NCBI GenBank assembly: GCA_027487385.1
Contig: JAIYDS010000090.1
Coordinates: 29,608-93,607 of the forward strand
DNA: 64,000 bases
Source: Acetobacteraceae bacterium
Lineage (GTDB): Bacteria > Pseudomonadota > Alphaproteobacteria > Acetobacterales > Acetobacteraceae
Reading direction: 5' to 3'
Part shown: positions 2,872 through 63,061 of the stretch, in pieces
Layout of the letters: every line of letters begins with the position of its first letter
Numbering within the stretch: the first letter of the stretch is position 1
Program-made: the position numbers and the translations under genes
The notes under the pieces: model-generated
What the model saw: only the letters and a program-made list of their open reading frames with translations
Databases searched by the model: none
Told to the model about the DNA's origin: nothing

Positions 2872-3051
2872 GCGCAGCGGATCGAGCGGGGGTACCTGGG
2901 CAGCCTGCTGCGGCTGACGCTGCTGGCGCCGGCCATTGTCGAGGCGATGCTGGACGGTTTGCAGTCTGAGGGTGTGATGCTGCCGGAGCTGATGGGGCCA
3001 TTTTCGTTGCATCGGGAGACGCAATGCGGCCGGCAACCGGGGAATGGCTGA
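2872..3051 (+). pseudogene. Fragment of recombinase-partner gene (C-terminal half)
   Basis: RIERGYLGSLLRLTLLAPAIVEAMLDGLQSEGVMLPEL parallels RLERGYLGSLLRLTLLAPGLVEAILEGRQAEGVTLPAL of 199-630; no N-terminal half present. Confidence 0.8.
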
Positions 3052-4563: not shown

Positions 4564-4650
4564 CGGAAGACCGTCGTGACGCCGATGACCGATGGCGCGG
4601 TTCGGTCACGACGCGCGCCGGTTCGGTGCTATTGAAGGCGCTGGCAACCT
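4564..4650 (+). pseudogene. Fragment of recombinase-partner gene (N-terminal part)
   Basis: cggaagaccgtcgtgacgccgatgaccgatggcgc...aaggcgctggc is nearly identical to about 262-345 with small indels. Confidence 0.75.
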
Positions 4651-4653
4651 TGG

Positions 4654-6468
4654 TTACCCCGCAGCCTTGCGCCGCCGCCGAGGCTGGCGGGGCGTAGGTG
4701 TTGAACGCCGAGCGGAAGGCGCCAAGGGCGGCGAGACGTCCATGACCACTACGCGCACGGCGTCGCCGGACTCATTCACTAGGTTTTGTAGAGCACCCTC
4801 GAGCGCCACCGGATTCGAGATGATGTCGCCGGATCCTGGGTGCGCCAGTCTTTTCAACCCGCACCAGAAGACGAGGTACACGCCCCGCCCTGCGGACGAC
4901 GGTTCGCGAGCGTAGCCTTCGCCGAGTTGGTCTCTCCAAGCTGTCCAAAGCTCGGGGTGCCACTCCCCCTTCGCCTCAATGGGCAGCGTGCACGCGCGCA
5001 GTAGGGCCGGAATGGCACCGGCGCGCCCGTCTTCGGGCACTGAGGCGTCGAGCACGACACTGGAGAGGGTCGGGGCCAGTTCAGGCAATGCTTGGCCATC
5101 CGACAGCGCCTCGAGCACGCACCACGCGAGTTGTCCCGGCCACGGCCGGCTTTCGAGGATCTCGCGTAAGGCGCCGGCCAGGGCGGGCGAGGCGAGCGCC
5201 GCCAGGCGCGCCTCGCCCCACAGGTCGCTGCGGAAGAAGGGGTCGCGGCGCTCGAGATCGGCGAGCGCGCCAAGTAGAGCGTGCAGCGCGGCAGGGCCGA
5301 ACTCGCTCGGGTCGCCGTAGGCCAGGACGCCGTAGGGGTCGAGGCGCACGAGGCTTTCCGCTCGCGAAGGCAGCAGCGTGGCGACCCAGGCGAACAGTCC
5401 CCGCAGCGATGGGTGCGGCTCTGGGTTGCGCCCGCACAGGAGGGCCTCGACCCGTCGCAGCGGAAGGCCGCGCTCCCCCACTCGGCGCGCGAGGAACCGT
5501 GCTGCGAGGAACTCCGCCACGGTGCGATGCTGGGGCGCGAAGCGGCCCTCTCCAACTCCGGAAAAGAGCCGCGAGGCGAGCGCGGCGCGCAGTGCGTCTC
5601 CGTTCGTTCCCTCCGGATCAAGGTCATCTAGCGACACATCTCGCTGGTCGGTCGACGAATCGAGCGACACCGCGTCGCGGTCAGCAAGAAGCAACGCGGA
5701 GCACGCGAGCCCGGCCGCGTCGAGCAAGGCGGCAGGCGGTGGCGGACGGCCCGCGTGGTGCAGCCGAGGCCGCTCACGGTTGGCCTCTCGGGCGAGGAGA
5801 TCCGCAGCCGTTTCGTACAAGGTCCGGCGCGACGAAGGGAGGCCGCCTCCCCTTGAGGCGACGTCCAGCATGAGAAGCAGGGTTTGGGGGTTGCGGAGGA
5901 GGGGAGTGAGCCGCGCTTCCTCCACCTGCTGGAGAAACTCGGCGGGATCCTGCCCACCGGCACGGACGAGCGCCTCGACGCCTGCGTCGTCTAGCGGGAG
6001 CAACCGGACACGGAGTAGGGGGCGGCTGCCCGCTGCGTCTCTCAGCACTCGCGTGCCGGCAAGCGCAGCCCAGTCCACCGGTCGGCACGAAAGCCAGAAG
6101 CGGGGTTGGCCGCATTCGTGCAACTTCCATGCGACAGCGTCGGCTGGGTTCGATGGCCCGCCGGCAAGCGCCTCGTCCAGCGCGTCCAGGATAAGCGGCG
6201 TGCCGGGCGTTACCCAACCGGTCGGCCTTGCCAGGAATTGGCGAACCGGGACGAAGATGCCGCCGCAGACGCTTGCCGCCTCCACCATACAGGTTGTCTT
6301 GCCGCTACCAGGGTCGCCTAGGATCAGGACGCACACGTCGTCGGGGAGGTCCCGCAAGCGAAGAGAGCGGCGCTCCGAGCGTGGGTCATCTTCAACGATC
6401 TCGACTGTCCGCTCCACGCTAAGTGCGGCGCCGACAAGGCGTACTTGGGAACCACCATCTGACGACAT
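4654..6468 (-). CDS. NACHT/STAND-like P-loop NTPase, probably 3'-truncated
   Basis: Walker A GDPGSGKTT, Walker B-like LILDALDEA, STAND-like arrangement; C-terminus degenerates into Arg/Pro-rich tail next to the 4564-4650 scar. Confidence 0.65.
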   Translation of the reverse strand: MSSDGGSQVRLVGAALSVERTVEIVEDDPRSERRSLRLRDLPDDVCVLILGDPGSGKTTCMVEAASVCGGIFVPVRQFLARPTGWVTPGTPLILDALDEALAGGPSNPADAVAWKLHECGQPRFWLSCRPVDWAALAGTRVLRDAAGSRPLLRVRLLPLDDAGVEALVRAGGQDPAEFLQQVEEARLTPLLRNPQTLLLMLDVASRGGGLPSSRRTLYETAADLLAREANRERPRLHHAGRPPPPAALLDAAGLACSALLLADRDAVSLDSSTDQRDVSLDDLDPEGTNGDALRAALASRLFSGVGEGRFAPQHRTVAEFLAARFLARRVGERGLPLRRVEALLCGRNPEPHPSLRGLFAWVATLLPSRAESLVRLDPYGVLAYGDPSEFGPAALHALLGALADLERRDPFFRSDLWGEARLAALASPALAGALREILESRPWPGQLAWCVLEALSDGQALPELAPTLSSVVLDASVPEDGRAGAIPALLRACTLPIEAKGEWHPELWTAWRDQLGEGYAREPSSAGRGVYLVFWCGLKRLAHPGSGDIISNPVALEGALQNLVNESGDAVRVVVMDVSPPLAPSARRSTPTPRQPRRRRKAAG

Positions 6469-7022
6469 GCTTTTACGGCACCAGAGACGGCTCGGCGGCC
6501 AGGCCCTCGGTTCCTGCAAACGGAACCACCCGACTTCCACGCAGCAAGTTCAGGACAACCGGCATGCTATCCAAGTTAGCATGCAAAGGCGACGCTGCCC
6601 CAACTCCTGGGCGAACACAGCGGCTTTCTTCCTCCAGTATCTTTCGCTAGGCGGTCGGGTTGCGGAGTCCCCCCAAGCTCAGCGCGAAGAAATTATCATA
6701 AAATCAATGAGATAAAGCTCGATGGTTAAATCGGGCTACCCCCGAGCTTCGGAGACTTTCGCGCCGCTGGAGAGTGCTTTCCGGGTTCGTTGCGTTCTCC
6801 AACCCCAAGCCACCACGCCACAACGCCAGGAAAACTGCGGTTCACGGCGCCGTTTGATACGTGGTGAATGGTGGTTCGGGGAGATACTGGAGCAGCAGTG
6901 GCAACCGGAATCCAACCTTCGCTGGGTCCCGTGAGACGCGTCACGCTGGCTGAGACGTTTTCCGAAGTGCAAGCCTACGCGGCCGCGGTGTTGCAGCAAT
7001 CGTCGGCAGGGCCAGGGTCAGA

Positions 7023-7539: not shown

Positions 7540-8319
7540 ATGACTGATCCTTCTGATCCCGCGCTAGGCGCAGGAACTGGTGCCGATCGCCATCTAATGG
7601 CGCAGGTGTTCGACGAACTCGACCTCGACGCCTGGCGCCAAGAGCTTACCGTTGGGCGCGCCCAAAGGGCGGCAGAACTCATCACAAAGCTCGCCGCCTT
7701 GCGCCAGGGATCATCGGTCGTCGACTTCGGCTGCGGATCAGGCGCCATCGCGCACGCGCTGGCCTCTACAGGCATCTCAGTATGTGGCATAGATCGAAGC
7801 GAAGCGGCGATCATAGAAGCACGCGCTGGAGCACCCGCGTTGTGTTCGTTTGAGCACGCTGACTGGCTTGAGCTGACGCTGGAGCGGAGCTTCGATTGCG
7901 CCCTCTTCTGGTACACAACTTTATGCGCCGGAACAGAGCGCGACATAAGCGCCTTGCGTATGGCGCGAAGGCAGCTGAAGTCCGGCGGCGTGCTTCTCCT
8001 CGAAACACGCAACTGGGACCGTCAGCCGCGACAGTTTGATATCCGGTCAGACCGCGCTGGCCCCGATTTCGTCCTGACCGAAACGCACCGCTACGATGCC
8101 GCGTCCGGCGTGCAGACTACCGAGCAGACATTTGAATTTGTGGATCGTCTGATCTCGCGCGTCTACCAAACGCGGCGTTACTCTTTCCTGGATCTGCGCA
8201 CGATGTGTCTTGAGGCTGGGTTCGAGCAGGTCGAAGCCTTCGATGAGACAAACGCGGAACTCTCGAACGAGAGTGAGCGCCTCATCCTGCGCGCCCGAGC
8301 CAACGGGTGCTCGCGATGA
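7540..8319 (+). CDS. Class I SAM-dependent methyltransferase
   Basis: VVDFGCGSGAIAHALASTGISVCGIDRSEAAI; first gene of operon. Confidence 0.85.
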   Translation: MTDPSDPALGAGTGADRHLMAQVFDELDLDAWRQELTVGRAQRAAELITKLAALRQGSSVVDFGCGSGAIAHALASTGISVCGIDRSEAAIIEARAGAPALCSFEHADWLELTLERSFDCALFWYTTLCAGTERDISALRMARRQLKSGGVLLLETRNWDRQPRQFDIRSDRAGPDFVLTETHRYDAASGVQTTEQTFEFVDRLISRVYQTRRYSFLDLRTMCLEAGFEQVEAFDETNAELSNESERLILRARANGCSR

Positions 8320-9533
8320 TCTTCCCGATAGCCTTGCGCCAAGGGCTTTCCGCCGAACACGCTGAAAGATGGCACGAATTTTATGCGCACGCGTCGGATC
8401 GTAACCGAAAGCGAGAAGATGGTATTTGGAGGCGCACACAAGAAAGCTGGAACGCCTCCGAATCCGGGTGGCAGTGCCCAAGTGATCAGCGAAGGCGCAT
8501 CGTACACTACACCCACGAATACGACGTAGCGATTCGGGACGGCCAATTTTACCTTCTCATGACAAAGGCCTACGTGTATTTTTCTTTGTCATTACCTGAT
8601 GTGGAGTTGCGCCTCGAGATTTTGCGCATCAGATCAGCGCTAGAACGCGGCGGTTGGCGACCGGACGAGAAGGACGGCGTCACTGGATGGAGATTCAAGG
8701 ATCTGCGCTGCGACATCGTAGAGGCGGAGCAGCATGGTGAAGACATCCGTGCCGGCAGAGTGCTCCCAGCCAACTATCGCTCCGTGGACGTCACCATTGG
8801 CACGCTGCGGTACGAGGAAGTTGATCATCGCCTGCCCTGGGAGGTTCTCGCCAAGGGCATGCGCCGAAAGGACGAACGCGAAAACCCGACCATCATTCCC
8901 GATCTAAGTGCCTTGACCTCGCTTTGCCCCTTCCAGGTCGAACTCGGTTGCGGTGCGTCAATCGAGGCGGGCGTCCCACCTCTGCATCATCTGCACGAAC
9001 TCTACCGCGTGACTGAAATGGACTCGGGCCGGTTCATTTTTGGAGGCGTCCACGACGATCTGATTGCGCGCCTGCTAATATCTCCAGGCCATGAATTTGC
9101 ACGTCTTGGGACGCTTTTTACCGCGAGCTTCTTGGCAGAGCCGACGCCAGCCCATAACGCATTGCTTGCGCTGCGGAAGGCGGGACGGCTTGTCGGAGAC
9201 ATCATGACAAACAATTTCGACGGCCTCGCCCACCGCGTCGGTCTTCGCGAACACTTCCTGCGTCGCTACGACGAGACGATTCCTGACATTTCGCTCAAGA
9301 CTGAAGCCAAGGCGCTGCTGGTTATCGGGAGCCATGCTGACCGCCGCCGGGTGCAGGCGCGCGCCCGTGCGCGTGGCATGAAAGTTATCTATCTCGACCC
9401 AGAGGGGTATTGGCTCGATGGGCGCTTTATCGAATATCCGCTCGAAGGACCGCGCAATGGCGACTTAGTTTGCCGCAAAGGAGCATCCGACGGTCTCACG
9501 GAATTATGCGCGTTGATGGGGATTGATCCGTGA
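8316..9533 (+). CDS. Sirtuin-fold (SIR2-like) protein with an extra N-terminal region
   Basis: C-terminal part: GCGASIEAGVPPLHHLHEL, PTPAHNALLALRKAGRLVGDIMTNNFDGLAHRVG, ALLVIGSHADRRRVQARARARGMKVIYLDPE, in sirtuin motif order; ATGA overlap with previous gene. Confidence 0.65.
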   Translation: MIFPIALRQGLSAEHAERWHEFYAHASDRNRKREDGIWRRTQESWNASESGWQCPSDQRRRIVHYTHEYDVAIRDGQFYLLMTKAYVYFSLSLPDVELRLEILRIRSALERGGWRPDEKDGVTGWRFKDLRCDIVEAEQHGEDIRAGRVLPANYRSVDVTIGTLRYEEVDHRLPWEVLAKGMRRKDERENPTIIPDLSALTSLCPFQVELGCGASIEAGVPPLHHLHELYRVTEMDSGRFIFGGVHDDLIARLLISPGHEFARLGTLFTASFLAEPTPAHNALLALRKAGRLVGDIMTNNFDGLAHRVGLREHFLRRYDETIPDISLKTEAKALLVIGSHADRRRVQARARARGMKVIYLDPEGYWLDGRFIEYPLEGPRNGDLVCRKGASDGLTELCALMGIDP

Positions 9534-10267
9534 CGGCTGCGAACTTGCTTTCCGCGTCCGCGGTCTCGTTTCGACAAGCGTCCACCGATGAGGCGCTTCA
9601 GCGGGAATTGGCAGAGTGGTGGAGCGGCTGGGTCGCCGATCGCCCGCATCTGTACAATGGTGCATTGCTTGGGGTGCAATCGTGCGACGCGCGCGCCGAT
9701 GGCGGCGTCGAGATCGTCTGGTTTGTGACAAGCTACGCTCACTACTTACAGCGTGCCACATCCTCGCCTGTGTCTTCACCCGCGCGCGCGCTCTTCTGCT
9801 CGCTCGCCCTCCTTTCCGCCTCGGGCTCCCTCGTAATCGGGCAGATGTCCGATCGTACCTCGTCTCCGGGCCGGCTCCAGTTGCCGGGCGGAAACATCGA
9901 CACAGAGCCTTCTGGCCACCTGTCGATCGGTCACTGCGCTCAAGAGGCGCGCCGTGAATTCGACGAAGAAACCGGAGTGCCAATTGATGGCATGCCTATC
10001 AAGTTGTGGCGCATCAAGACTGGCGGTGCCCATGGCGATGTCGGGCTCATTTTTCTTTGCCGCTCCGCGCTCGCCGACGAAGACATTCAAGGCGCTTTTG
10101 CCGCTCACTTGAAGGCAAGCGACACGAAAGGCGAGTCCCCCGAATTCTCGCGCCTAGTCTTGATGCAGCCATCGCGCTTTCAGGCTGATGATGTGGGGCC
10201 TTGCGTAGATTATCTCCCAGCGGTGATGGCGCTGTTAGCGCGTCTGGACCCTGAGTTGCCCGCATGA
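9530..10267 (+). CDS. Nudix hydrolase-like protein
   Basis: LQLPGGNIDTEPSGHLSIGHCAQEARREFDEETGVPIDG (Nudix-box-like with insertion). GTGA overlap. Confidence 0.7.
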   Translation: MTAANLLSASAVSFRQASTDEALQRELAEWWSGWVADRPHLYNGALLGVQSCDARADGGVEIVWFVTSYAHYLQRATSSPVSSPARALFCSLALLSASGSLVIGQMSDRTSSPGRLQLPGGNIDTEPSGHLSIGHCAQEARREFDEETGVPIDGMPIKLWRIKTGGAHGDVGLIFLCRSALADEDIQGAFAAHLKASDTKGESPEFSRLVLMQPSRFQADDVGPCVDYLPAVMALLARLDPELPA

Positions 10268-11310
10268 CACAAGCCGTGCTCTTTCACACTCATGGCCTCG
10301 GTCGCTTTGACTTCTCCGACCTAAACGAGATCGATTTGGTAGCCATCAATGAAATCGCACGGCGCCGTGACGTGCTCTTGTGCCCCACAATATTTCTTAC
10401 TGAATGCAAGTTGGACCACTTCGAGACACTGCTTTGCGCGTATGCGCAACAAGCGCAGTCATTAGAGCGCATTGTCGGCTGGGCCATCGAAGGACCGATG
10501 CTCGGCTCTAAAGGCGGAACACCAGTCGGCGCCATATGGCGGCCAACAGCTGAACAATGGCGTCAAATGGCGCGGTGGTTTGACCTCGGCCTAAAATATA
10601 TGGTGATGGCACCCGACATATTCATGCTCGGCGACGACATCGGCCGCGACATGCGATTCGCTGATCTGATCACGCTCATCTACGCATCGGGCGGCCGAAT
10701 TGCCTTGGGTCACTTCGAAGGACAAAGCGCCGTAGAATCTGCGCGCCGTCTTGAAGCCGTCTTGGGCCACATAGAAGAACAGTTTAAGCCCTCACCATAC
10801 CTAGTTTTGACCGACCATCTATTTAACGACATGCCGCGCGCGTTCAAGCATGCCTTCCGCACATCTGCTGAAATGGCTGAACGGCGCGCCGAGCTTGCGC
10901 GGCATGAGGACCATGGGTGGCGGGCGGCGACGTTGGACGATCTCTTGGGGCATGTTCCCGCCGCCTTGCTACGCGCCGCCCGAGCAAAACGCCTTACGCC
11001 TTCGCTCAACTTTGACGGCGGACATGTCGATCTCGAAATATGTCGGCAAGTGGTGGCCTTTCTTGGCGCCAAGCGGCTCATCGCCATAACCGATCATACC
11101 GAATTGTTGTCGCTGGGCGGCGAAGTCTTGCGATTGGATGCACATACGCGGCTGCTATATCGCAGCGATAGCGTCCTTGCTGCTAGCTTTGTGACTCACG
11201 AGGAGCAGCGTGTTCACATGCGGAGCATTGGTATGAGTGAGGAGGCCATCTTTGCGGTGCAGCATGACGTGCCGCTAGAAGCCTTAAGGTACCGTCCGTG
11301 CAGGAAGTAG
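10264..11310 (+). CDS. Amidohydrolase related to N-acetylglucosamine-6-phosphate deacetylase
   Basis: HTHG start motif, WAIEGPML (cf. HLEGPF), GHFEGQSA, LNFDGGHVD, AITDHTELL in NagA-like order. Confidence 0.65.
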   Translation: MTQAVLFHTHGLGRFDFSDLNEIDLVAINEIARRRDVLLCPTIFLTECKLDHFETLLCAYAQQAQSLERIVGWAIEGPMLGSKGGTPVGAIWRPTAEQWRQMARWFDLGLKYMVMAPDIFMLGDDIGRDMRFADLITLIYASGGRIALGHFEGQSAVESARRLEAVLGHIEEQFKPSPYLVLTDHLFNDMPRAFKHAFRTSAEMAERRAELARHEDHGWRAATLDDLLGHVPAALLRAARAKRLTPSLNFDGGHVDLEICRQVVAFLGAKRLIAITDHTELLSLGGEVLRLDAHTRLLYRSDSVLAASFVTHEEQRVHMRSIGMSEEAIFAVQHDVPLEALRYRPCRK

Positions 11311-12353
11311 AGATCTCTGATCCAATCTGGCCCCGCGATGCGCTTGATCGATTGTTCAGAGATTGCCTACCTTCGGCTTCGCTTCAGGTTGAAGGTGTTG
11401 TTCTATGCGCTGGCACTGGTGTTCGCATGGCACCGCTCACTGAGACGGTACCGAAACCGCTCCTGCCCGCTCTCAATTGTCCGCTTGTGATGTGGAATCT
11501 CCGGCTCCTCAGTACGATCACGAGTGTCGTCTCGATCAACACGCATCACTTGAGTGAGCGATTTGCCCCAATCGTCTCGATTGGAACGCGATACAACATG
11601 TCAATGCAGTGCATACGGGAGACGAGTCTGTCTGGACCGTTTGGCGGCGTACGCGCCTGTTACCTGACCCGCTCAGCGCCCGAAGACATCGTCGTTCTGA
11701 CTGGTGATGGATTTTTTCAGGCGGACTTGCCGGCGCTCCTTAGACACCATCGCAAACACCACGCCGACCTCACCATGGGAGTTGCTTCGGTGCCCGATGG
11801 ATCTCGATATGGCGTGCTAAGCTCTGACGACAGCGGCCGCGTGTTGGCGATGCGCGAAAAGCCTCCGAACATAGGCGCCGTCTCTTCCGCAAGCTGTGGG
11901 GTCTACATTGTATCGCGTCGCGTGCTGGAGATGGTTCCAAGCGCAGGCGTACTGGATTGGATCGACATCGTCACTTTCTTGCTAAACAAGGGCAAGCTAG
12001 TCCTTGCCGCGCCGGTTGACCTCTGGCTTGACGCGGGGTCGCCCGCCGATCTGGTCGCTCTCAACCTGCGGCTTCTTGGTCATGAAACTGTTGATCTGGT
12101 TGCAGAGCGAATGTCTCATCGTAAGGTACACGCTTGGTCTCAGGGTCCGCTGGCCGCTCTGGATCCGATCGAGGCCTGCCAAAATGTGCTCTTCGGTGCG
12201 GGCGCGACGTTCGACGCGGGCATCAGTCTCACCAACGTAGTCGTAGGAACACGCGCGCACATTGGCGCTGGCGCTATTCTCGAGGATGTCGTCGTGTTGC
12301 CTGACGCGCGGGTTCCGGCCAATGCGCGTGTGAGCGGGGCGGTGTGCCGGTAA
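11298..12353 (+). CDS. Sugar-phosphate nucleotidyltransferase
   Basis: VVLCAGTGVRMAPLTETVPKPLLPALNCPLVMWNL; C-terminal left-handed beta-helix-like repeats. Confidence 0.85.
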   Translation: MQEVEISDPIWPRDALDRLFRDCLPSASLQVEGVVLCAGTGVRMAPLTETVPKPLLPALNCPLVMWNLRLLSTITSVVSINTHHLSERFAPIVSIGTRYNMSMQCIRETSLSGPFGGVRACYLTRSAPEDIVVLTGDGFFQADLPALLRHHRKHHADLTMGVASVPDGSRYGVLSSDDSGRVLAMREKPPNIGAVSSASCGVYIVSRRVLEMVPSAGVLDWIDIVTFLLNKGKLVLAAPVDLWLDAGSPADLVALNLRLLGHETVDLVAERMSHRKVHAWSQGPLAALDPIEACQNVLFGAGATFDAGISLTNVVVGTRAHIGAGAILEDVVVLPDARVPANARVSGAVCR

Positions 12354-13534
12354 TGCGCGTTCTCCTCCTTGCCTCGACCTTTCATCCCCAAATCGGCGGC
12401 GCGGAGACTTATGCTCTGAACATCGCGCGCGGCTTGTTTGCGCTTGGTCACACCGTCGATGTCGTCACAGATAGCGGCGCACTGCCACCCACTGACCGCC
12501 CAGCTGACGGCATTCCGATCCATCGTCTTTCCAAGTATCGGGACGCCTTCGGCGCCCAGGACCGCATATTGTGGGAAGAGATGGCCTTTGGCCTGCGGCC
12601 GGAACTGGCTGAGATAGTCGCGGCGGTCCGCCCCGACGCCATCGTCTCAAACAGCCTTGATCTATGCGTCATGGCCAAGCTCGTAAGCCTCACTCAGAAC
12701 ATACCCTGGATCGCGTGTTTCCATGAGCAAGCGCCTGAACGTGAACCGCTTGGCACAGCAACCCTTCAGCTCTGCTACGGATTGCTCCAGCCTGATGCGG
12801 TGATCGCGGGCTCTGCCTTCTACATGAAGCGCGCGACCCAATTTGCGGCGCACCGAGCGCACCTCATCTATCACGGGATCGACACGGATGCGTTCCGCTG
12901 CAGCGATGAAGCGGCTGCCGTAGTGCGGCGACAATATGGTTTGGCGCCCGACGCTTTGATCGTCGCCTCACTCGGTCGCTTCAAAGCGCGCAAGGGGTTT
13001 CTCGATCTCCTTGAGGCGTTCGCCGTCGTTCCTCGGACCGCGCAAGACCTGGCACTCGTCATCGCTGGGAGCTTAAACTCAGCAAGCTCTGAGTACTTCG
13101 CTCAGATGACGGCCGCGGCTCAGAATTTGGGGCTAAGCGACCGGGTGATTTTTGACCAGACGCTGGCGCATCACGACATCCCACAGCTGCTTTCGGGAGC
13201 CGATATTGTGGTTCAAGCCTCTCTTGAGGAAGGTCTGGGTCTCGCCTTAATCGAAGCGATGTCGTGCGCTCGCGCGGTGGTGGCGACACGGATCCCCGCG
13301 CACCTCGACGTTCTTGGCACATCTGACGCAGTGGTCCTGGCCGACCCGCAATCTCCTCGTTCGCTCGCGAGGGCAATCTCTACTCTGCGCCAAGACGCAG
13401 ACCTTAGAGCACAACTGGGCGCGCGTGCGCGCGCTCACGTGTTGAGCCGCTTCTCTTTGAAGGCAATGTCGGAAGCGACCGAGCACCTTATCCAAACATG
13501 CATTTCAACCAGGATCAACAATGCGAGTACATGA
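12353..13534 (+). CDS. Glycosyltransferase family 4
   Basis: MRVLLLASTFHPQIGGAETYALNIARGLFALGHTVDVVTD; SLEEGLGLALIEAMSCARAVVAT. Confidence 0.9.
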   Translation: MRVLLLASTFHPQIGGAETYALNIARGLFALGHTVDVVTDSGALPPTDRPADGIPIHRLSKYRDAFGAQDRILWEEMAFGLRPELAEIVAAVRPDAIVSNSLDLCVMAKLVSLTQNIPWIACFHEQAPEREPLGTATLQLCYGLLQPDAVIAGSAFYMKRATQFAAHRAHLIYHGIDTDAFRCSDEAAAVVRRQYGLAPDALIVASLGRFKARKGFLDLLEAFAVVPRTAQDLALVIAGSLNSASSEYFAQMTAAAQNLGLSDRVIFDQTLAHHDIPQLLSGADIVVQASLEEGLGLALIEAMSCARAVVATRIPAHLDVLGTSDAVVLADPQSPRSLARAISTLRQDADLRAQLGARARAHVLSRFSLKAMSEATEHLIQTCISTRINNAST

Positions 13535-14447
13535 CAAGATCTGGTGGAATGGCTCGATCGTGCCTTGGGATGAGGCCCGGGTTCACGTCACGTCTGACAC
13601 AGCCCAGAGAGGGCTAAATGTGTTCGAGGGATTGCGCGCCTACTGGCGCCCGTCTTCGCATGATTATGCAATCATTGGGCTGGACGCACATTTGGAGCGT
13701 CTGGAGAACTCCGCGCGTTTGCTTTCCATCCCTGCTGGCGACGTCAAGGCGCGCATGCTGTCGGGTTTGCGCCAACTGGTAGGAACGATCGAGCAACCGT
13801 CCGACCTCTATCTTCGTCCGACTCTCTATATAGATGCGGGCGCCTACGATATCGACCAAGCAAACATCGTGACGGGTGAGTTCATTAGCTGGCGCCCGGC
13901 GGCAGCCATCGAACGCCGCGCTCTCCGGTGCAGCATTTCTTCCTGGCTGCATACGCCGGCCCAATGCCTGCCGCCACATGCAAAAATTGGCGCGGCGTAC
14001 ACCGCCTTTCGCCTCGCACGGCTCGACGTGCAGGCTAGAGGTTTTGACGAAGCCCTCCTCGCAAACGCCGACGGAGACATCACCGAAACACCAGGCGGCG
14101 CCATTTTCATTGTGCAGGATGATCAGCTTGTGACGCCCCCCCTCGAGACGGGCATCTTGCCCAGTATCACCCGCCGGATAGTCATCGAAACCCTCGCTCC
14201 GTTGCTCGGCATCAGATGCAAACAACGCCGGCTTCGCCGCGGCGATATCGTTGGCGCGACAGCCGCCCTCATTGTTGGAACGCTTGACGAAATCTCTCGC
14301 ATTACCGCCCTCGATGACCACGTCTTCGGCTCCGGCCTCGATGGAGATATGGTCTCCCAATTAGACGTCGCCTATCGAAACCTATGTAGGAACGGCGCCG
14401 CTGGTGGTTGGGTAAGCCTCTTTCCTGGACGAGAGCGCGCTCAGTGA
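13521..14447 (+). CDS. Class IV aminotransferase (branched-chain aminotransferase-like)
   Basis: IWWNGSIVPWDEARVHVTSDTAQRGLNVFEGLRAYW, ANADGDITETPGGAIFIVQDDQLVTPPLETGILPSITR. Confidence 0.9.
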   Translation: MRVHDKIWWNGSIVPWDEARVHVTSDTAQRGLNVFEGLRAYWRPSSHDYAIIGLDAHLERLENSARLLSIPAGDVKARMLSGLRQLVGTIEQPSDLYLRPTLYIDAGAYDIDQANIVTGEFISWRPAAAIERRALRCSISSWLHTPAQCLPPHAKIGAAYTAFRLARLDVQARGFDEALLANADGDITETPGGAIFIVQDDQLVTPPLETGILPSITRRIVIETLAPLLGIRCKQRRLRRGDIVGATAALIVGTLDEISRITALDDHVFGSGLDGDMVSQLDVAYRNLCRNGAAGGWVSLFPGRERAQ

Positions 14448-15124
14448 AACCTAGCATACTTACCTTCGACATTGGATCGACGCTGATCCATCCGAACTTC
14501 GTAGCGCTGCGTGAGTGGGTGGGGGAACATACGGGTATTCGCACAGATGCCGCCACAGTCGAATACGCATTTCGGCGCGCACTCGCGGGCGACGTATTTT
14601 CTGCGAATAACGGCGAAGACGCGGCGGCGCTGCGCTTCTTCTCGTTCATTGGCTGCGCAAGTACGACGAAGGTACTTTGGCTGGACTGGTGGGCGAGCAT
14701 TGTACGATCGGGCGGTGCGGGGTCATGGCTCTACACCGTGCTTGATCCCCAGGCGCACGAGACGCTGCGCACACTGAAAGATAGCGGTTGGCGATTGGTG
14801 GCAGCTTCAAACAGTGATGGCACGCTTCGGGCCGAGCTCACCGCGTTTGGCCTAATCGAATTTTTTGAAGCCACTTACGATTCTCATGATATCGGTGTCG
14901 CGAAGCCCGAGCCGGAATTCTATCGATACGTCCTCAATGATATCGGCGGATCGCGCGCCGTCCATATCGGCGACGACTTGCTTAAAGACGTGCTAGGCCC
15001 TCTAGCCTCCGGCTTCTCGAGCGCCATCCTCTTTGATCCAGCGAATATTTACAAAGGTACGCCCCCCGGCGCAAGAATTGCGCAGCTCGCTGACCTCATC
15101 GGCACGCTGGATCGGATCGCATGA
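14444..15124 (+). CDS. HAD superfamily hydrolase
   Basis: ILTFDIGSTLIHPN, AASNSDGTLR, VAKPEPEFYRYVL, VHIGDDLLKDVLGP; GTG start overlapping previous stop. Confidence 0.85.
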   Translation: MKPSILTFDIGSTLIHPNFVALREWVGEHTGIRTDAATVEYAFRRALAGDVFSANNGEDAAALRFFSFIGCASTTKVLWLDWWASIVRSGGAGSWLYTVLDPQAHETLRTLKDSGWRLVAASNSDGTLRAELTAFGLIEFFEATYDSHDIGVAKPEPEFYRYVLNDIGGSRAVHIGDDLLKDVLGPLASGFSSAILFDPANIYKGTPPGARIAQLADLIGTLDRIA

Positions 15125-15918
15125 GAAACGCCACCGATGATCTGAAGCTCGCTCATTACATGGCAGACGCCGCCGACATTTTGTGTCGGCGCGCTTTTGG
15201 TATGGCCGGCTCTACCACGAAGAAAGCTGACGGCTCGCCTGTCAGCGCCGTCGATGTTGAAGTGGAGCGCGCCATAACGAATCTCATCAGAGAACACCGG
15301 CCAGACGATGAGGTGTTCGGTGAAGAACATTCAGAAGGCGGCGAGCCTCTCACCGACGATGCCGTCTGGATCATCGATCCGCTAGATCACACCCGCCATT
15401 TTACACGTGTTAATCCCAACTACGGCGTGCTCATCGCCTTGATGGTTGGCGGGATCGCCGAGGTAGCGGTCGTGTCGGCTCCGAGCCTGAATCATCGCTG
15501 GGGCGCCGCGCGCGGCCAAGGCGCCAACGGCAACGGCAAGAGACTTCAAACGTCTGCAACGCCCCTTGTTGAGCAGGCGCATCTGGCGCTGGCGGGTCAC
15601 CGCGAATGGGTGAACCGCTACGATTGGGGCTCGGTATTGAAACTCATGGACCGGGTCAGCTATCTCTGCGGCACGCCGGGCGGGTTTTACCCGGCCATGC
15701 AAGTCGCTGCCGGGCAGCTCGACGCCTTTGTCGAACCCTGGGGTGCGGTGTGGGACCATGCGGCGCTCGCTTTGATCGTCGAAGAGGCCGGCGGGCGCGC
15801 GACAACACTGAAAGGAATGGCACCCACCGGGGGATCACTGCTTGTCAGCAATCGCCTCCTACATGACGAGTTATTGGATTACTTCGCGAATCCTGCGCCG
15901 GCTGGAGACGCCGCATGA
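15121..15918 (+). CDS. Inositol monophosphatase family protein
   Basis: GEEHSEGG, VWIIDPLDHTRHF, WDHAALALIVEEAGG. Confidence 0.88.
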   Translation: MRNATDDLKLAHYMADAADILCRRAFGMAGSTTKKADGSPVSAVDVEVERAITNLIREHRPDDEVFGEEHSEGGEPLTDDAVWIIDPLDHTRHFTRVNPNYGVLIALMVGGIAEVAVVSAPSLNHRWGAARGQGANGNGKRLQTSATPLVEQAHLALAGHREWVNRYDWGSVLKLMDRVSYLCGTPGGFYPAMQVAAGQLDAFVEPWGAVWDHAALALIVEEAGGRATTLKGMAPTGGSLLVSNRLLHDELLDYFANPAPAGDAA

Positions 15919-16853
15919 GACCCGAGATCAGCTCCGAGTGGATCGATTACTTCCAGCGCAACGGCTTTCCACATGCACGCGGCCTCGACACAGGTATGGA
16001 GGGCGCAGTCTACGTGCTCGTGCCAGATCAACTTGTCGCGAAGGTCTGGATCAAAAAAAAGGATGGCGAACTCGCGCAGCTCAAGGCTTTCTATGATGCG
16101 ATAGCGACCGAGGGCGGCCAAATCGCGACCCCTGAGATTAGGGAAATTCGCGTCGTCGATGGCGTTTCAGTTTCAATTGAACGCTTCCTTCCGGGATCGC
16201 TACTGCAGGTCCTCACGCCAGACAACGCATCGGAGGCGAACAAGAAGGCCGTGAAGGCCATTATACAGACCTTGAGCTTCCTTCGGACTGTTCGTCCTAA
16301 GCCAGAACTATTGCGCTTATCCGTGCTAGGTGAAGACGCTCCGTGGGATCGAGCGGCGACATGGAGTGGCGCCGTTGGTGCGCTCCTGAACCGGCGTCTT
16401 GCCCGCTATGGTGATCAGCTACAAAATCGAGTGCGCGATTTCAGCGCTATTCTCGAGGCGTCGTCGAGATTCCTGGCGTCGCGTGATGATTTGCCGCTCA
16501 GTCTCATCCACGGCGACCTATGTGGCGCCAACATCATGATCGACACTGAATCGAAGCCGCTTTGTGTCTTCGATTTCGGCTTCCTGTCGACGATTGGGGA
16601 TCCCGCATTCGACGCTAGCATTTCGAGCGGCATCTTCAACATGTATGGCCCCGCCGCCCGGACGATCGACGATGAAGTAACATTCGCAGTTTCGGAGGAG
16701 CTCGGTTATCCTCGCAAGGTTCTGCTTGCTTATCGTGCAATATACGCCCTCCTCACTAGCAACGCCTATTCACCTGAAGGTACGGACGGCCACTTCCAAT
16801 GGTGTGTCAACATGCTGCGCCGGGACGACGTTCGCGCGTCGCTTGAATTATGA
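15915..16853 (+). CDS. Aminoglycoside phosphotransferase-like small-molecule kinase
   Basis: SLIHGDLCGANIMIDTESKPLCVFDFGFLSTIGDPAFD (Brenner and DFG-like motifs). Confidence 0.8.
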   Translation: MRPEISSEWIDYFQRNGFPHARGLDTGMEGAVYVLVPDQLVAKVWIKKKDGELAQLKAFYDAIATEGGQIATPEIREIRVVDGVSVSIERFLPGSLLQVLTPDNASEANKKAVKAIIQTLSFLRTVRPKPELLRLSVLGEDAPWDRAATWSGAVGALLNRRLARYGDQLQNRVRDFSAILEASSRFLASRDDLPLSLIHGDLCGANIMIDTESKPLCVFDFGFLSTIGDPAFDASISSGIFNMYGPAARTIDDEVTFAVSEELGYPRKVLLAYRAIYALLTSNAYSPEGTDGHFQWCVNMLRRDDVRASLEL

Positions 16854-17611
16854 CCGAGAAAGCCCACACCGATGGCGGCTCTTGCTACGCATTTGACAGC
16901 CGCGGGTACACCGTCCGCTCAGGTTTTCTCACCCCTGGAGAGGTGCAAAGGGCTCGCGAAATCTTGACGGAGCTACCACTCGCACAAGATGCTTGGAACC
17001 CGGATCAACGCCGCGCCCTCAATATTCATCGTTCTAGTGGGTATTTGACTGATCTCGCGCATGAACTTTTTCAATTGCCACTTACTCGGGCGCTGATTAG
17101 CTACCCTCACCGTCTGTTAGAAAGTTACGCCCTGGTGCGGACACGGGGCGCGCTCGACCTCCACGGGGGCGCTTCAGAGTTTCTTGCCGGGATCGACATT
17201 CACGATCACTCTGCCCAAGCAGCCATTCTGGCTGGACGTCCCTATGCACTCCGCGTCAAGGTATTGATCTATTTGGATGACGTCCTCGACACGCCAGATG
17301 GTCGCTTTACATATGTCGAGGGATCGCACAAAGCCGGGCTTTCTTTCCATCGCTCCTTTCCGCGTGGAAGGCAGGACGCCCAACACCTAATGCGCACAGT
17401 AGAGGTGCGCGCCGGCGACGCCATTTGGCTCAACGAAGCGCTGCTCCATGGCGCAGACGTAAAGACTTCCGATACGCCGCGGCGTCTGCTTGCCTACACG
17501 TTCGGTCCCACCTTCATGGCAAGTTGGAGTGAGCTCAGCTGCGACCAATCGCTCGAACGAAGTGGTTATGCCGCATCGGAGAGCGAGAACTCACAAGGCG
17601 GCGCCGCATGA
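16850..17611 (+). CDS. Phytanoyl-CoA dioxygenase (PhyH)-like Fe(II)/2-oxoglutarate oxygenase
   Basis: LRVKVLIYLDDVLDTPDGRFTYVEGSHKAGL, GDAIWLNEALLHGADVKTSDTPRRLLAYTFGP. Confidence 0.75.
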   Translation: MTEKAHTDGGSCYAFDSRGYTVRSGFLTPGEVQRAREILTELPLAQDAWNPDQRRALNIHRSSGYLTDLAHELFQLPLTRALISYPHRLLESYALVRTRGALDLHGGASEFLAGIDIHDHSAQAAILAGRPYALRVKVLIYLDDVLDTPDGRFTYVEGSHKAGLSFHRSFPRGRQDAQHLMRTVEVRAGDAIWLNEALLHGADVKTSDTPRRLLAYTFGPTFMASWSELSCDQSLERSGYAASESENSQGGAA

Positions 17612-18411
17612 GCGTACTGACGCCAGTCGTGACGGCGAGCGACCAAAATTTTCTGCCGGGCCTCTATACACTTCTTGCTAGTCTTCAGCATTATACTCCA
17701 CGCCGCGCCGTCCATGTGCTTGATTGCGGCATTCACCTCGTAGCTCGTCAGCGCCTCGACCAGCGCTTTCCAAACCTTCACTGGACATCGCTCTCAGTCG
17801 ACGTGGATTTACCTCTCCCAAGCGTCGCCTCACGCGCCAGCTACGCCCGGTTTCAGATCGGAGATATCTTTACCGCTGACGCTCGCGTACTCTATTTGGA
17901 TGCCGACGTTGTTGTGGCATCCAATATCGACGAGATCGATGACATCGTGCTGGGTCCGTCCGACATTGTTGCTGCGTGCCTTGAACCCTACACACCGACA
18001 TTTGCGGCGCAGAACGGCGTCCACGATTTTCATCGCTTGGGTTTTGACGGCGGCGAACCCTACTTCAATGCTGGCGTCATGCTAGTTCGCCCTCGCGCCT
18101 GGCAAGAGGCGGGCATTGCGGAACGCGCTGCCGCCTACCTCAGACGTAAAGACGTGAGAATTACGCTGTTCGATCAAGAAGCTCTTAATATAGTACTTGC
18201 TAGACGGTGGCGCGAACTTGCCCCCAAATGGAACGTGAGCCGATTCTGGATGAAACGCGAACGACGCGAAAGAAATCCTAGCATCTTGGAAGAAGCCAAG
18301 CTTGTACATTTTCTTTCGAAGGCGAAACCGTGGTCAGCCCCGCATGACGTACACCCCTGGTTGCTGGATCACTACCGCAGATTTGCGCCGGATGGCGATC
18401 TAAGTCCATGA
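17608..18411 (+). CDS. Glycosyltransferase family 8
   Basis: VTASDQNFLPGLYTLLASLQHYTPRRAVHVLDCG, ARVLYLDADVVVASNIDEI. Confidence 0.85.
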   Translation: MSVLTPVVTASDQNFLPGLYTLLASLQHYTPRRAVHVLDCGIHLVARQRLDQRFPNLHWTSLSVDVDLPLPSVASRASYARFQIGDIFTADARVLYLDADVVVASNIDEIDDIVLGPSDIVAACLEPYTPTFAAQNGVHDFHRLGFDGGEPYFNAGVMLVRPRAWQEAGIAERAAAYLRRKDVRITLFDQEALNIVLARRWRELAPKWNVSRFWMKRERRERNPSILEEAKLVHFLSKAKPWSAPHDVHPWLLDHYRRFAPDGDLSP

Positions 18412-19301
18412 TCCCTAATCACGTGCACTTTATTTTCGGTCTCGATCAAGCATTTGGAGGCAAGCCGTTTTCCTTTGTTCATTTTCTGGCCGTTTTAAGT
18501 GCCAAGAAAGTCAATAAACCCGACGAAATTGTGTTTCATTACGAGTATGAGCCAGAGGGCGAATGGTGGGAACGCGCAAAGCCGTTCCTCACGTTGGCTC
18601 GTGTTAACGCGCCGCGATATTTTAATGGGCGCGCCCTTGAACACTTTGCGCACCGCGCGGACGTGCTGAGGCTACAAATCTTGCTGGCTGAGGGCGGCAT
18701 CTATCTGGACGCGGATACGTTCTGTGTCACACCGTTCACACCGTTGCTCAAAGAATCCACGGTCCTTGGCATTGAGCCCAATGCTGGCCTTTCGAATGCG
18801 GTCATTCTGGCGGCGAAGGGGGCGCAGTTTCTCAAGGTTTGGCTCGATACCTATTCTTCGTTTGATAGTAAAGACTGGCGGTCGCACTCAATCCGGATGC
18901 CTTTTCGTTTGAGCAAGCGGCACCAGGATCTCCTTCGGATCGAAGGCGGTCAGGCATTTTGTTTTCCCACATATGATGACCCCATGCATATATTGCTATG
19001 GAAAGAAGAAGCAAGCCTTGGACAGCGCGTCTCTGGACTATTTCGTGTACTTCGTGACATTCCGTACTATTTGAGCGACGAGTGGCCGGTTAGTTTCATG
19101 CCCTATCTGCGATCAGTGCTCGCGCAGCGTGCGGACTTTTATTTCCGCTTGCGATCCGCGTATTGCGTTCACCTTTGGGAAAGCCTTTGGTGGGACCGAT
19201 ACTTGCGTGACCTCGCTCCGGAGGCTCTCTCGAACAGGCGTACTTTGTTTGCAGCGCTGTCCGCGGACGTATTGGGCGAAAATTTTCTGTCGTTATCATA
19301 A
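18408..19301 (+). CDS. DXD-containing glycosyltransferase (GT32-like)
   Basis: IPNHVHFIFG; AHRADVLRLQILLAEGGIYLDADTFCVTPF. Confidence 0.8.
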   Translation: MIPNHVHFIFGLDQAFGGKPFSFVHFLAVLSAKKVNKPDEIVFHYEYEPEGEWWERAKPFLTLARVNAPRYFNGRALEHFAHRADVLRLQILLAEGGIYLDADTFCVTPFTPLLKESTVLGIEPNAGLSNAVILAAKGAQFLKVWLDTYSSFDSKDWRSHSIRMPFRLSKRHQDLLRIEGGQAFCFPTYDDPMHILLWKEEASLGQRVSGLFRVLRDIPYYLSDEWPVSFMPYLRSVLAQRADFYFRLRSAYCVHLWESLWWDRYLRDLAPEALSNRRTLFAALSADVLGENFLSLS

Positions 19302-19515: not shown

Positions 19516-21348
19516 TCACGGGATCCGCCTCTTCGTCACTTGCACCGCCAGCGCCGCCGCGGCGAGGTCCACCGTCGACGCGCTGACGTTCCGCGCCGTG
19601 ACGCGCACGCTGTTGTTCGACCACACATGGCAATCGAGCACGAAGGCGATGCTGCTGCTGTCGAGCGAGGCATCGGCGAAGTCGCCGCGCCGCGCGCCAG
19701 GCACCGCGACGTCGATGTTCGCCGTCGCGCCTGCGGTCAGGCTCGGTAGGTCCCAGGTGGCCTCTAGGGCTAGGCTGCGCGTCCCCACTGGGACCGACGG
19801 GCAGCCGTACAGCACCGCAGGCGCCGCCTCCGGCAGCCCGAACAGCCGCAGCGCCTCGAGCTCGATCTGTCCGTCAAAGCCGACGATGCCCACCTGCGCA
19901 AAGGCCACGCCGGCGCCGACCCGGATCGTCTGCCGCCGATTCAGCGACGAGTCCGCCATCACCGCGCCGGCATTCCAGCCCTTCGCCGGGCTGTTCCACT
20001 GCATGGTCGTGCCGGAGGCCAGCACGTCGCCGGCGATGTTCTCCCGTACATTCGCCGCGCCATCGAACACCCGCACAAACAGACGTCCGCCATCGACGCC
20101 GCCGACCAGCCAATGCGCCAGTGCAAACTCCTTGGCCGAGGAGGTATCCACCACGAAGGCCATGCCGCGATTGGCGTCTAACAGCAGCCCGCGCGCGGTT
20201 GCGGCAATCCCGTCCAGCCCGTTGAAGCACAGTCCCGTCAGCGTGGTCGTCGCGGTGGTCGAGCTGGCCAGTGTCGCCAGCTTCTCGACGCCGATCTCGG
20301 TGCCGCTCTGTCGGAAGGCCGCAGCGCGGAGATTGGGCACCGCCTCCAGCAGCCGCAGCAGCCGCGAGGCCGGCGCGCGGTGCCGGTTGATCACCGCATT
20401 GCCCGCGCGGTCCGCGGTCGCGGTGTAGTCGATCCGGACGGCATAGGTGTTGGCCCAGGCCACCTCGTACTCGCAGTCGGTCGCGCTGCCGGTGTGCCGA
20501 GCCACAATCGGCGAGCAGGCCTCCATCCGCAGTGCGCGGCCGATAATTGCGGTGCCATCCGTCTCGTTCAGGAAGGGGATCGCCACGTTCGGGTCGAGCT
20601 GCCGCAGCTCGAAGTTCGGCCCGTCGAAGACGTGCCGGTTGTGGTTGTTGTAGCCGCCCGCGCCCCGCGAGATGCGAATGCCGTAGCGGTCGATCGTCGG
20701 GTTGATGCCGGTGGCGAGGGCGAAGTGGCCGCCATAGTAGCGGATCGACGTGTTCCAGGCGGTCGCCGTCTCGGCGCGGATGTCGAGGCCGTAGCGGTTG
20801 TTCAGGATGCGCAGCAGGTGGAAGGTGCTGTCCTCGACGCCGCGGCCATCGCCCAGCGTGCGCATGCCGATGGTGAAGCCGGAGACCAGGCGCAGATCGA
20901 CGACCGTGGCATCGATGTTGCGCACCAGGATGCCGATATCGGCCTCGGAGGCCCAGTCGGATTGGATCTGCCTGACCACCTGCAGCCCGGCGTAGAGCTT
21001 CTCGCCGTTGCGCGTGGTGCCGCCATCGCCCAGCGTCAGGACCGTAGCCGGCGCATTGGCGGCGCCGGTGTAGCGGATGACCCCGCGCATGATCAGCCCG
21101 CGGGCGCCGCCGCCCAGCGTGACCCCACTGCCGACATTCCAGGTGCCGGGCGGGATGACGGCGAACTTCTGGTCCGCCGCGGCGCGATCAAAGCAGGACT
21201 GGATGGCGCTGCGGTCGTTCGCCACGCCATCACCCAAGCCGCCGAAATCGGTCGGCAGCACGGCCTCCCGATCGCGGAGGTACTTCGCGAAGTCGGTCTT
21301 GTTGAGGTTGGCGTTGAGGACCAGCAGGTCATCGATGCGCGCCGGCAT
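19516..21348 (-). CDS. Phage tail-spike-like protein (pectate-lyase-type beta-helix candidate), copy 1
   Basis: DFGGLGDGVANDRSAIQSCFDRAA (typical phage/pectate-lyase_3 N-terminal motif); homologue at 61208-63049. Confidence 0.75.
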   Translation of the reverse strand: MPARIDDLLVLNANLNKTDFAKYLRDREAVLPTDFGGLGDGVANDRSAIQSCFDRAAADQKFAVIPPGTWNVGSGVTLGGGARGLIMRGVIRYTGAANAPATVLTLGDGGTTRNGEKLYAGLQVVRQIQSDWASEADIGILVRNIDATVVDLRLVSGFTIGMRTLGDGRGVEDSTFHLLRILNNRYGLDIRAETATAWNTSIRYYGGHFALATGINPTIDRYGIRISRGAGGYNNHNRHVFDGPNFELRQLDPNVAIPFLNETDGTAIIGRALRMEACSPIVARHTGSATDCEYEVAWANTYAVRIDYTATADRAGNAVINRHRAPASRLLRLLEAVPNLRAAAFRQSGTEIGVEKLATLASSTTATTTLTGLCFNGLDGIAATARGLLLDANRGMAFVVDTSSAKEFALAHWLVGGVDGGRLFVRVFDGAANVRENIAGDVLASGTTMQWNSPAKGWNAGAVMADSSLNRRQTIRVGAGVAFAQVGIVGFDGQIELEALRLFGLPEAAPAVLYGCPSVPVGTRSLALEATWDLPSLTAGATANIDVAVPGARRGDFADASLDSSSIAFVLDCHVWSNNSVRVTARNVSASTVDLAAAALAVQVTKRRIP

Positions 21349-21358
21349 GGCGGGCCTC

Positions 21359-32151: not shown

Positions 32152-32666
32152 CCCGACGATCGAACGCGAAGGCGAAGCAGGGGAGCGCGGCGCCGCCGGC
32201 GCCCACTGTGCCGAAGATCCCGCCCGCACAGGTCCTGCCGCGCCTCGCCGCGCTGCAGACCGCCACGAGCGCCGAGCTGAAGGAGCAGTGGCGGGTGCTG
32301 TTCGGCAAGGAGCCGCCGCCTTTCAACCGGCCCTACCTAGTGAGCCGGCTCAGTTACCGGGTGCAAGAGCTCGCGTACGGCGGGCTGAAGCCTGAGACTC
32401 GGGCACGCCTCGAGGCGCTGGGCGAGCAGCTCGACGGCGGCAATGTGATGCTGCGTCGGGTTCGCGCCAACAGCCGGCCGCTGCCCGGCACGCGGCTGGT
32501 CCGCGAGTACGACGGCGTGCAGCACGTGGTGACAGTGCGCGCCGACGACTTCGAGTACGAGGGCCGGCCCTATCGGTCGCTTTCCGCCATCGCGCGGCAC
32601 ATCACCGGCACGCGCTGGAATGGCTGGGTGTTCTTCGGGCTTCGTCAGCCGGGAGCCTCGGCATGA
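32148..32666 (+). CDS. DUF2924 domain-containing protein
   Basis: RPYLVSRLSYRVQELAYGGL, GTRLVREYDGVQHVVTVRADDFEYEGRPYRSLSAIARHITGTRWNGWVFFGL. Confidence 0.85.
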   Translation: MTRRSNAKAKQGSAAPPAPTVPKIPPAQVLPRLAALQTATSAELKEQWRVLFGKEPPPFNRPYLVSRLSYRVQELAYGGLKPETRARLEALGEQLDGGNVMLRRVRANSRPLPGTRLVREYDGVQHVVTVRADDFEYEGRPYRSLSAIARHITGTRWNGWVFFGLRQPGASA

Positions 32667-63049: not shown

Positions 63050-63061
63050 GGCTGTCTCCGA

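Follow-up and report, generated by a model that had tools for sequence, protein, structure and literature searches.

Gene content and layout of the operon

Positions 7540-19301 of the window (the whole 64,000-nucleotide stretch of Acetobacteraceae DNA analyzed here) hold 13 uninterrupted open reading frames on the + strand, and all 12 junctions between them overlap, in gene order by 13, 4, 4, 13, 10, 14, 4, 4, 4, 4, 4, and 4 nt. The run of 13 consecutive + strand frames with short overlaps throughout, described in an earlier note on this DNA, is thus borne out. For the HAD gene, the GTG at 14444, which forms a GTGA junction, is preferred as the start over the TTG at 14408. The lower GC content that the same note had seen relative to both flanks is also evident, with 57.9% in the operon against 66.7% on the left and 68.6% on the right; individual genes range from 61% down to 51.7%, the last gene being lowest. 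Promoter and terminator scans gave no DNA-level signal beyond chance.

Most of the families named in the earlier note stand, with Pfam matches above the cut-off. The first gene (7540..8319, +) encodes a class I SAM-dependent methyltransferase (Methyltransf_25, E = 7.8e-14). Further downstream, also on the + strand, lie a sugar-1-phosphate nucleotidyltransferase with an LbH tail (11298..12353; NTP_transferase, E = 5.7e-30), whose top NCBIfam model, mannose-1-phosphate guanylyltransferase (ManC-like), scores below its cut-off; a GT4 glycosyltransferase (12344..13534; Glycos_transf_1, E = 1.3e-32); and a class IV (BCAT-fold) aminotransferase in which a GTLDE loop replaces GTAAE (13521..14447; Aminotran_4, E = 1.1e-38). 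They are followed by a HAD-superfamily hydrolase with an FDIGSTL motif that lacks the second Asp (14444..15124; Hydrolase, E = 9.8e-14) and an inositol-monophosphatase/HisN-type phosphatase (15121..15918; Inositol_P, E = 4e-43). The APH-fold kinase (15915..16853, +; APH, E = 7e-15) is a candidate self-protection kinase, and the top solved structures for its family profile are hygromycin-B 4-O-kinase and capreomycin/viomycin kinases. The last three + strand genes encode a PhyH-family Fe/2OG oxygenase (16850..17611), HygX-like by its PDB matches and a candidate orthoester former; an LgtC-like GT8 glycosyltransferase (17608..18411; Glyco_transf_8, E = 3.7e-38; LgtC, E = 5e-12); and a GT32-type glycosyltransferase with a DXD sugar-binding region (18408..19301; Gly_transf_sug, E = 2.6e-10), for which plasmids yielded one weak match, in Diaphorobacter.

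Three assignments are less firm. The sirtuin fold earlier proposed for the 408-aa SIR2-like protein (8307..9533, +) is weakly matched (Pfam E = 0.029; family profile against Sir2-Af2, 1ma3, E = 0.0015), but its sirtuin-type motifs, GCGxSxEAGxP and TNNFDxL, correspond to NAD-binding-type motifs (the latter as NNFDxL) that are kept across 11 homologues. RRYD apparently replaces HG, at a position before which the profile alignment to 1ma3 stops; zinc cysteine pairs seem to be lacking, and a single Cys is invariant among the homologues. An AlphaFold2 model had low confidence (pLDDT 49) and was set aside for fold search, and no relatives were found in the viral contigs searched. The Nudix hydrolase (9530..10267, +) falls below the Pfam cut-off (NUDIX, E = 0.004), but its Nudix box, ending REFDEETGV, is intact. 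The NagA-like amidohydrolase/deacetylase (10264..11310, +) has no match in Pfam or NCBIfam and reaches E = 0.028 by profile against a NagA structure, yet its metal-site pattern HxH...E...H...H...D (H8xH10, E76, H150, H185, and D277) is invariant in seven homologues.

Recurrence of the core and horizontal origin

The gene-neighborhood search suggested in the earlier note bore fruit, as overlapping subsets of these genes recur as blocks elsewhere, in five genomes or plasmids besides the window. In Nocardia stercoris, a single run comprises genes of the SIR2-like, Nudix, class IV aminotransferase, HAD, GT4, IMPase, APH, and methyltransferase families and shares with the window the order SIR2L-Nudix...ATIV-HAD...IMP-APH; it differs in lacking NagA-like, nucleotidyltransferase, PhyH, GT8, and GT32 genes and in having an extra GT-like gene. 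The uncharacterized clusters of genomes G445, G766, and G232, two of these being actinomycete genomes, and of Rhodococcus pyridinivorans plasmid pSID are heptose-type, and all have the NagA-like gene, the nucleotidyltransferase, the GT4, and an aminotransferase with a GTLxE loop. The kinase is present in three of these four (no APH match was obtained in G232). Gene order is for the most part that of the window, and NAGA-NTPT-GT4-ATIV-APH is common to the window, G445, and G766. Likeness extends to some kind of Nudix gene and, in G445 and Rhodococcus, to the methyltransferase. The heptose-type clusters differ from the window in having SIS and GHMP kinase genes, the latter HddA-like in G445, and genes for export or acyl activation; SIR2-like, HygX-like, GT8, and GT32 genes were not found in them.

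The genome-wide top match of the GT4 lies at the cluster in all five genomes or records, at 160-304 bits against at most 74 for any other, and the aminotransferase and, outside G232, the kinase likewise have their top matches there, far above paralogues. The cluster aminotransferases with the GTLxE loop form one clade (support 100/99). Sequence identity to the cluster homologues is 37-39% (G445 and Rhodococcus) and 25% (Nocardia) for the methyltransferase, 35-45% over four clusters for the NagA-like protein, 34% for the Nocardia Nudix that adjoins its SIR2-like gene, and 40% for the Rhodococcus IMPase; an IMPase homologue is also present in the Nocardia cluster, and HAD homologues occur in both. 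The SIR2-like protein is 47% identical to that of Nocardia stercoris and 41-47% identical to those of actinomycete cassettes. Among the latter, a Streptomyces/Kitasatospora plasmid cassette resembles the window in placing a SIR2-like gene (41-45%) beside an aminotransferase and sugar-nucleotide enzymes, but it consists of class III aminotransferase, SIR2-like, UDP-glucose dehydrogenase, GNAT, and RmlD-like genes and has none of the other window families.

Some single-gene relatives were rejected as cluster members. Plasmid relatives of the Nudix gene neighbor primase or fumarylacetoacetate hydrolase genes instead, and the NagA-like gene alone is no marker of the cluster, as it also occurs with different neighbors in Streptomyces xanthii-type clusters and on an Alkalihalophilus plasmid. 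Relatives of the kinase stand alone on plasmids of Rhodococcus and Deinococcus. Our use of "undescribed" refers to the open-access literature, in which searches found no matching cluster.

Horizontal acquisition, as the earlier note had proposed, is supported by the distribution of these genes. None of the 20 same-genus genomes searched has the NagA-like gene, the SIR2-like gene is confined to the host genome among 399 of its phylum, and the known relatives are actinomycetal. The mobile-element debris reported in the flanks could be given an identity: prophage tail sequence, repeated at 61.2-64.0 kb of the window, makes up the right flank, and the left flank contains scraps of a serine-recombinase-linked repeat. 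A luciferase-like gene in the left flank is 95% and 93% identical to genes of same-genus genomes; in an empty-site comparison with relatives this gene was shared and its neighborhood was not. To the earlier description we add that the operon is composite in nature. The host assembly is fragmented, at 88.75% completeness and 6.7% contamination.

The oxygenase and hygromycin B

The antibiotic hygromycin B has an unusual orthoester bond, whose formation is ascribed to an enzyme of the HygX type. Among solved structures, the only matches of the PhyH protein (E < 0.01) are 4xc9, 4xca, 4xcb, and 4zpi (E = 2.8e-31), the first of which we take to be HygX; near-identity of 4xc9 to the PhyH protein of a cluster with APH(7'')-Ia supports this identity. 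HygX has been described as a member of the orthosomycin group of Fe/2OG oxygenases (PMC8234114). The sole match among plasmids, at 37% identity, lies in the same hygromycin-type cluster, which is carried by a plasmid of Streptomyces sp. SAT1 and served as the reference. The two proteins have in common the candidate metal and 2OG residues H105, E110, H200, and R211 (motifs LHGGxxE and NEALxHG and a downstream R), which are putative ligands.

When 19 proteins of the reference cluster were compared with the window (tblastn, 1e-4), PhyH alone gave a match, and the heptose module (SIS, GHMP kinase, and HAD), the cluster-specific aminotransferases, and the ABC pair of hygromycin B were not found in the window by tblastn. 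By family, the window and this hygromycin B-type cluster are alike in a HygX-type PhyH, a GT4, and an APH-fold kinase, whereas the window is without the heptose module, DegT aminotransferases, radical SAM gene, and ABC pair and instead has the class IV aminotransferase and NagA-like, SIR2-like, Nudix, GT8, and GT32 genes. The actinomycete relatives share the SIS, GHMP kinase, and HAD heptose genes with the hygromycin-type cluster (33-54%), and G445 and G766 resemble it further in their paired ABC transporters. The operon is best read as related to the hygromycin B group and not as a member of it. As no HygX-like gene was found in the actinomycete sister clusters, the oxygenase may have been recruited recently and may use a different substrate.

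Candidate product and alternative readings

When these results are placed side by side, we see about an even chance that the operon is a horizontally acquired specialized-metabolite pathway for a small amino-saccharide of the aminoglycoside or orthosomycin sort. As the core recurs in distant actinomycetes and is joined here by a HygX relative, the product is probably undescribed and sugar based and is possibly an antibiotic. The gene content also supports the amino-sugar or glycan-like small molecule of the earlier note; from it we infer the class of product and its enzymatic steps, which would probably yield a methylated, glycosylated amino-saccharide, probably orthoester bearing and protected by the APH kinase.

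In such a pathway, the NagA-like enzyme and the aminotransferase could supply an amino sugar or cyclitol, the nucleotidyltransferase would activate a phosphorylated sugar, and GT4, GT8, and GT32 would assemble an oligosaccharide to be decorated by the methyltransferase. The HygX-like oxygenase would close a linkage of the orthoester (spiro) type or a similar oxidative one. The kinase would phosphorylate the product within the cell as self-protection, and the IMPase or HAD phosphatase would take the phosphate off; the closeness of the kinase profile to antibiotic kinases and its lone plasmid copies count in favor of this overall reading. The SIR2-like/Nudix pair is least understood, and our guess is that it draws a ribosyl or sugar-phosphate unit from a dinucleotide, either NAD+ or an NDP-sugar, which is consumed. 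Against this reading, the operon offers neither an exporter nor a regulator, and it has no aminocyclitol synthase and no DegT-type sugar aminotransferase; GT8 and GT32 enzymes are usual in surface-glycan loci, APH-fold kinases are often kinases of primary metabolites, and the host assembly is fragmented.

Modification of a surface glycan or glycolipid, in which an activated sugar is put on LPS, capsule, or lipid by the three glycosyltransferases and receives methyl and phosphate decorations, is the rival to which we give a minor but real share of probability. The LgtC-like GT8, weakly matching an LPS galactosyltransferase model, the ManC-like nucleotidyltransferase, and the low GC of the 3'-end glycosyltransferase genes all suit it. 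Pfam, however, detects among the 13 genes none for a polymerase, a flippase, a lipid carrier transferase, or export, as the earlier note had remarked of polymerases and transporters; a HygX-like oxygenase and an APH kinase are unusual in such loci; and elsewhere the core is plasmid borne or accompanied by ABC pairs and NRPS-like genes, as in secondary metabolism. A product derived from NAD or a nucleotide seems less probable still. Here the SIR2-like protein would move ADP-ribose from NAD+, the Nudix enzyme would cut the pyrophosphate, the phosphatases would trim, and the remaining enzymes would decorate a ribosylated compound, consistent with the adjacency of the SIR2-like and Nudix genes (overlapping here, adjacent in Nocardia), with the conserved sirtuin-type motifs, and with the intact Nudix box. 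Yet the usual catalytic His is seemingly missing, four sister clusters are without any SIR2-like gene, and in the Streptomyces cassette the SIR2-like gene lies beside sugar-nucleotide genes without a Nudix, so a sugar nucleotide may be what the protein acts on.

The presence of a SIR2-fold protein near prophage debris could also suggest an anti-phage or conflict system acting by NAD depletion, but we consider this the most improbable reading of all: PADLOC reports nothing for the SIR2-like, Nudix, and NagA-like proteins, the match of the methyltransferase to Mad2 reflects a generic domain, and 13 biosynthetic-type enzymes with intact motifs are unlike any defense locus. Hardly more plausible is a chance run of unrelated genes or a contaminating piece, to which the contamination of the fragmented assembly and the sharp drop in GC might point; the operon is internal to one contig, its flanks hold the luciferase-like gene with close same-genus matches and phage tail sequence found again at the opposite end of the window, and collinear cores exist in other genomes.

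Within the favored amino-saccharide reading, it could be speculated, as a tentative extension that we think rather unlikely, that the clusters define a new antibiotic family spanning actinomycetes and at least one proteobacterium. A class IV aminotransferase with an altered substrate loop would replace the usual sugar aminotransferases, with a heptose branch in actinomycetes and, here, a SIR2-fold/Nudix branch joined by a HygX-like orthoester-forming oxygenase, so that a Gram-negative bacterium would make an orthosomycin-like compound. If the favored amino-saccharide reading is right, it would reveal an uncharacterized family of saccharide clusters without PKS, NRPS, or RiPP markers that class-based cluster finders could miss, place orthoester chemistry in a proteobacterium with a second HygX-type lineage in which to test it, and make a role of the SIR2 fold in small-molecule biosynthesis directly testable. 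The sequenced Rhodococcus plasmid and Nocardia stercoris offer more tractable organisms for such tests.

The 13-gene operon

The 13-gene operon at 7540-19301 (+) is real: all 13 ORFs are intact, and they overlap by 4-14 nt at 12/12 junctions, in line with the translational coupling proposed in the earlier note. The most likely start of the HAD gene is GTG 14444, which gives a 4-nt GTGA overlap. As that note also observed, GC content is lower in the operon (57.9%) than in its flanks (66.7% and 68.6%). It declines along the operon, reaching 51.7% in the final gene, GT32, and it may therefore be that GT8 and GT32 are later additions. Ten family calls exceed the Pfam cut-off and the Nudix domain is backed weakly by Pfam; the SIR2-like and NagA-like calls lie under every curated cut-off and are based on conserved motifs. 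For the operon as a whole we infer saccharide antibiotic-type biosynthesis, with the product and every enzymatic step predicted. The earlier reading of a horizontally acquired pathway for a small molecule or glycan is supported, and it is sharpened by a HygX-like PhyH oxygenase, heptose genes in relatives, and an apparently composite make-up.

Related clusters in actinomycetes

Co-conservation of the block is borne out, as subsets of the operon recur as clusters in Nocardia stercoris (found in one scan of genome contigs), in the actinomycete genomes G445, G766, and G232 (found by sampling such genomes with the NagA-like protein as query), and on the Rhodococcus pyridinivorans plasmid pSID. Control searches with shuffled proteins gave zero matches. 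In Nocardia, SIR2-like, Nudix, class IV aminotransferase, HAD, GT4, second GT-like, IMPase, APH, and methyltransferase genes are consecutive on one strand. G445 and G766 share NagA-like, SIS, nucleotidyltransferase, GHMP kinase, GT4, and class IV aminotransferase genes, with APH, second nucleotidyltransferase, epimerase, Nudix, and HAD-IIIA genes as the remainder, and G445 additionally has the methyltransferase. The same set is present on pSID, split by siderophore genes, and G232 has NagA-like, nucleotidyltransferase, GT4, and Nudix genes, with the aminotransferase and SIS genes ~13 kb off. The window, G445, and G766 share the gene order NagA-like, nucleotidyltransferase, GT4, aminotransferase, APH; a second order, SIR2-like, Nudix ... 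aminotransferase, HAD ... IMPase, APH, is common to the window and Nocardia. The window operon therefore appears to combine both types.

When each whole genome or record was searched, the top match of the window aminotransferase and GT4 was the cluster copy in all five (aminotransferase in G445, 251 bits vs 42 for the runner-up; GT4 in G766, 304 vs 54). The same holds for the APH wherever it occurs; the G232 genome gave no APH match. The six cluster aminotransferases form one clade (support 100/99) and carry GTL(D/A)E in a loop that takes GTxxE forms, GTAAE among them, in canonical branched-chain enzymes. This loop is where BCATs bind the carboxylate of their substrate, which makes an altered substrate likely.

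On pSID (locus L054, 12255-42064), genes of the core cluster are intermingled with those of a hydroxamate-type (IucA/IucC) siderophore locus and with acyl-activating genes. A Streptomyces sp. BB1-1-1 plasmid (locus L066, 653-33143) has a large aminoglycoside-like cluster with a carbamoyltransferase, a condensation domain, and an ABC pair, and its GT4 is 39% identical to the window GT4.

Predicted chemistry

The sole PDB match set of the window PhyH at E<0.01 is 4xc9/4xca/4xcb/4zpi (E 2.8e-31), which we take to be HygX. This identity is supported by the aligned sequence, which is almost the same as that of a PhyH protein encoded in a Streptomyces plasmid cluster with APH(7'')-Ia; that protein is also the only plasmid relative of the window PhyH. 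HygX is described as belonging to the non-haem iron/2OG oxygenases implicated in orthosomycin orthoester linkage formation (PMC8234114). Among 19 proteins of this hygromycin-type cluster, PhyH alone has a match in the window, which therefore does not contain a hygromycin B cluster. The GHMP kinase (39-51%), HAD (40-54%), and SIS (33-42%) proteins of that cluster are matched in actinomycete relatives of the window core, and its ABC transporters in G445 and G766 too. The G445 GHMP kinase is HddA-like, HddA being a heptose-7-phosphate kinase. The PhyH and heptose-gene evidence converges on an aminoglycoside-like chemistry with heptose or orthoester features.

The nearest solved structures to the cluster-APH profile are hygromycin-B 4-O-kinase and capreomycin/viomycin kinases, and APH homologues occur as lone genes on Rhodococcus and Deinococcus plasmids, away from such clusters. 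Both observations are compatible with, but do not prove, a protection role.

Eleven SIR2-like homologues share sirtuin-like motifs, with RRYD apparently standing in for the catalytic HG and zinc cysteine pairs absent. Elsewhere, the SIR2-like gene sits in a recurring plasmid-borne five-gene Streptomyces cassette with class III aminotransferase, UDP-glucose dehydrogenase, GNAT, and RmlD-like genes (L004 15339-19492, L005 12710-18107, L034 10535-16191). This setting suggests that the protein takes part in sugar or nucleotide-sugar chemistry instead of deacylating proteins. Residues 35-55 of the window protein (8307-9533), EEGIWRRTQ...SGW, resemble a sirtuin stretch normally located after the GAG motif, a non-significant similarity (1.7 bits) hinting at circular permutation in the family.

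Origin and flanks

The source assembly is fragmented (5.49 Mb, 88.75% complete, 6.7% contamination). Contamination as the origin of the operon is unlikely because both flanks tie to the same genome; a left-flank luciferase-like gene has orthologues 95% and 93% identical in same-genus genomes. The window-encoded NarH shares 81-82% identity with proteins of Rhizobium and Mesorhizobium, which makes an alphaproteobacterial host probable. We read the operon as a rare acquisition, in agreement with the horizontal origin proposed before, because the NagA-like gene was found in 0/20 same-genus genomes searched and the SIR2-like gene in no second genome among 399 of the phylum. The mobile-element debris noted earlier is confirmed at both borders, as prophage tail remnants at right and recombinase-linked repeat scraps at left.

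A 2.8 kb prophage tail segment occurs twice in the window, at 19516-22297 (right of the operon) and 61208-64000 (window end), with 80% identity. A single ORF at 21359-24322 (-) has a Toprim_3/DUF7146 primase-like N-part and a Phage-tail_3 C-part, as would result from an in-frame deletion fusing two distant prophage genes. The 628-aa ORF at 4654-6540 (-), with a weak AAA/nSTAND3-type P-loop match and no PADLOC assignment, is a possible conflict-type NTPase. Sequence adjoining a serine recombinase gene (32663-34015) recurs as partial copies at 7-494, 259-341, 413-543, 2876-3006, 4564-4645, and 33820-34313, which may be scars from recurrent insertion to the left of the operon.
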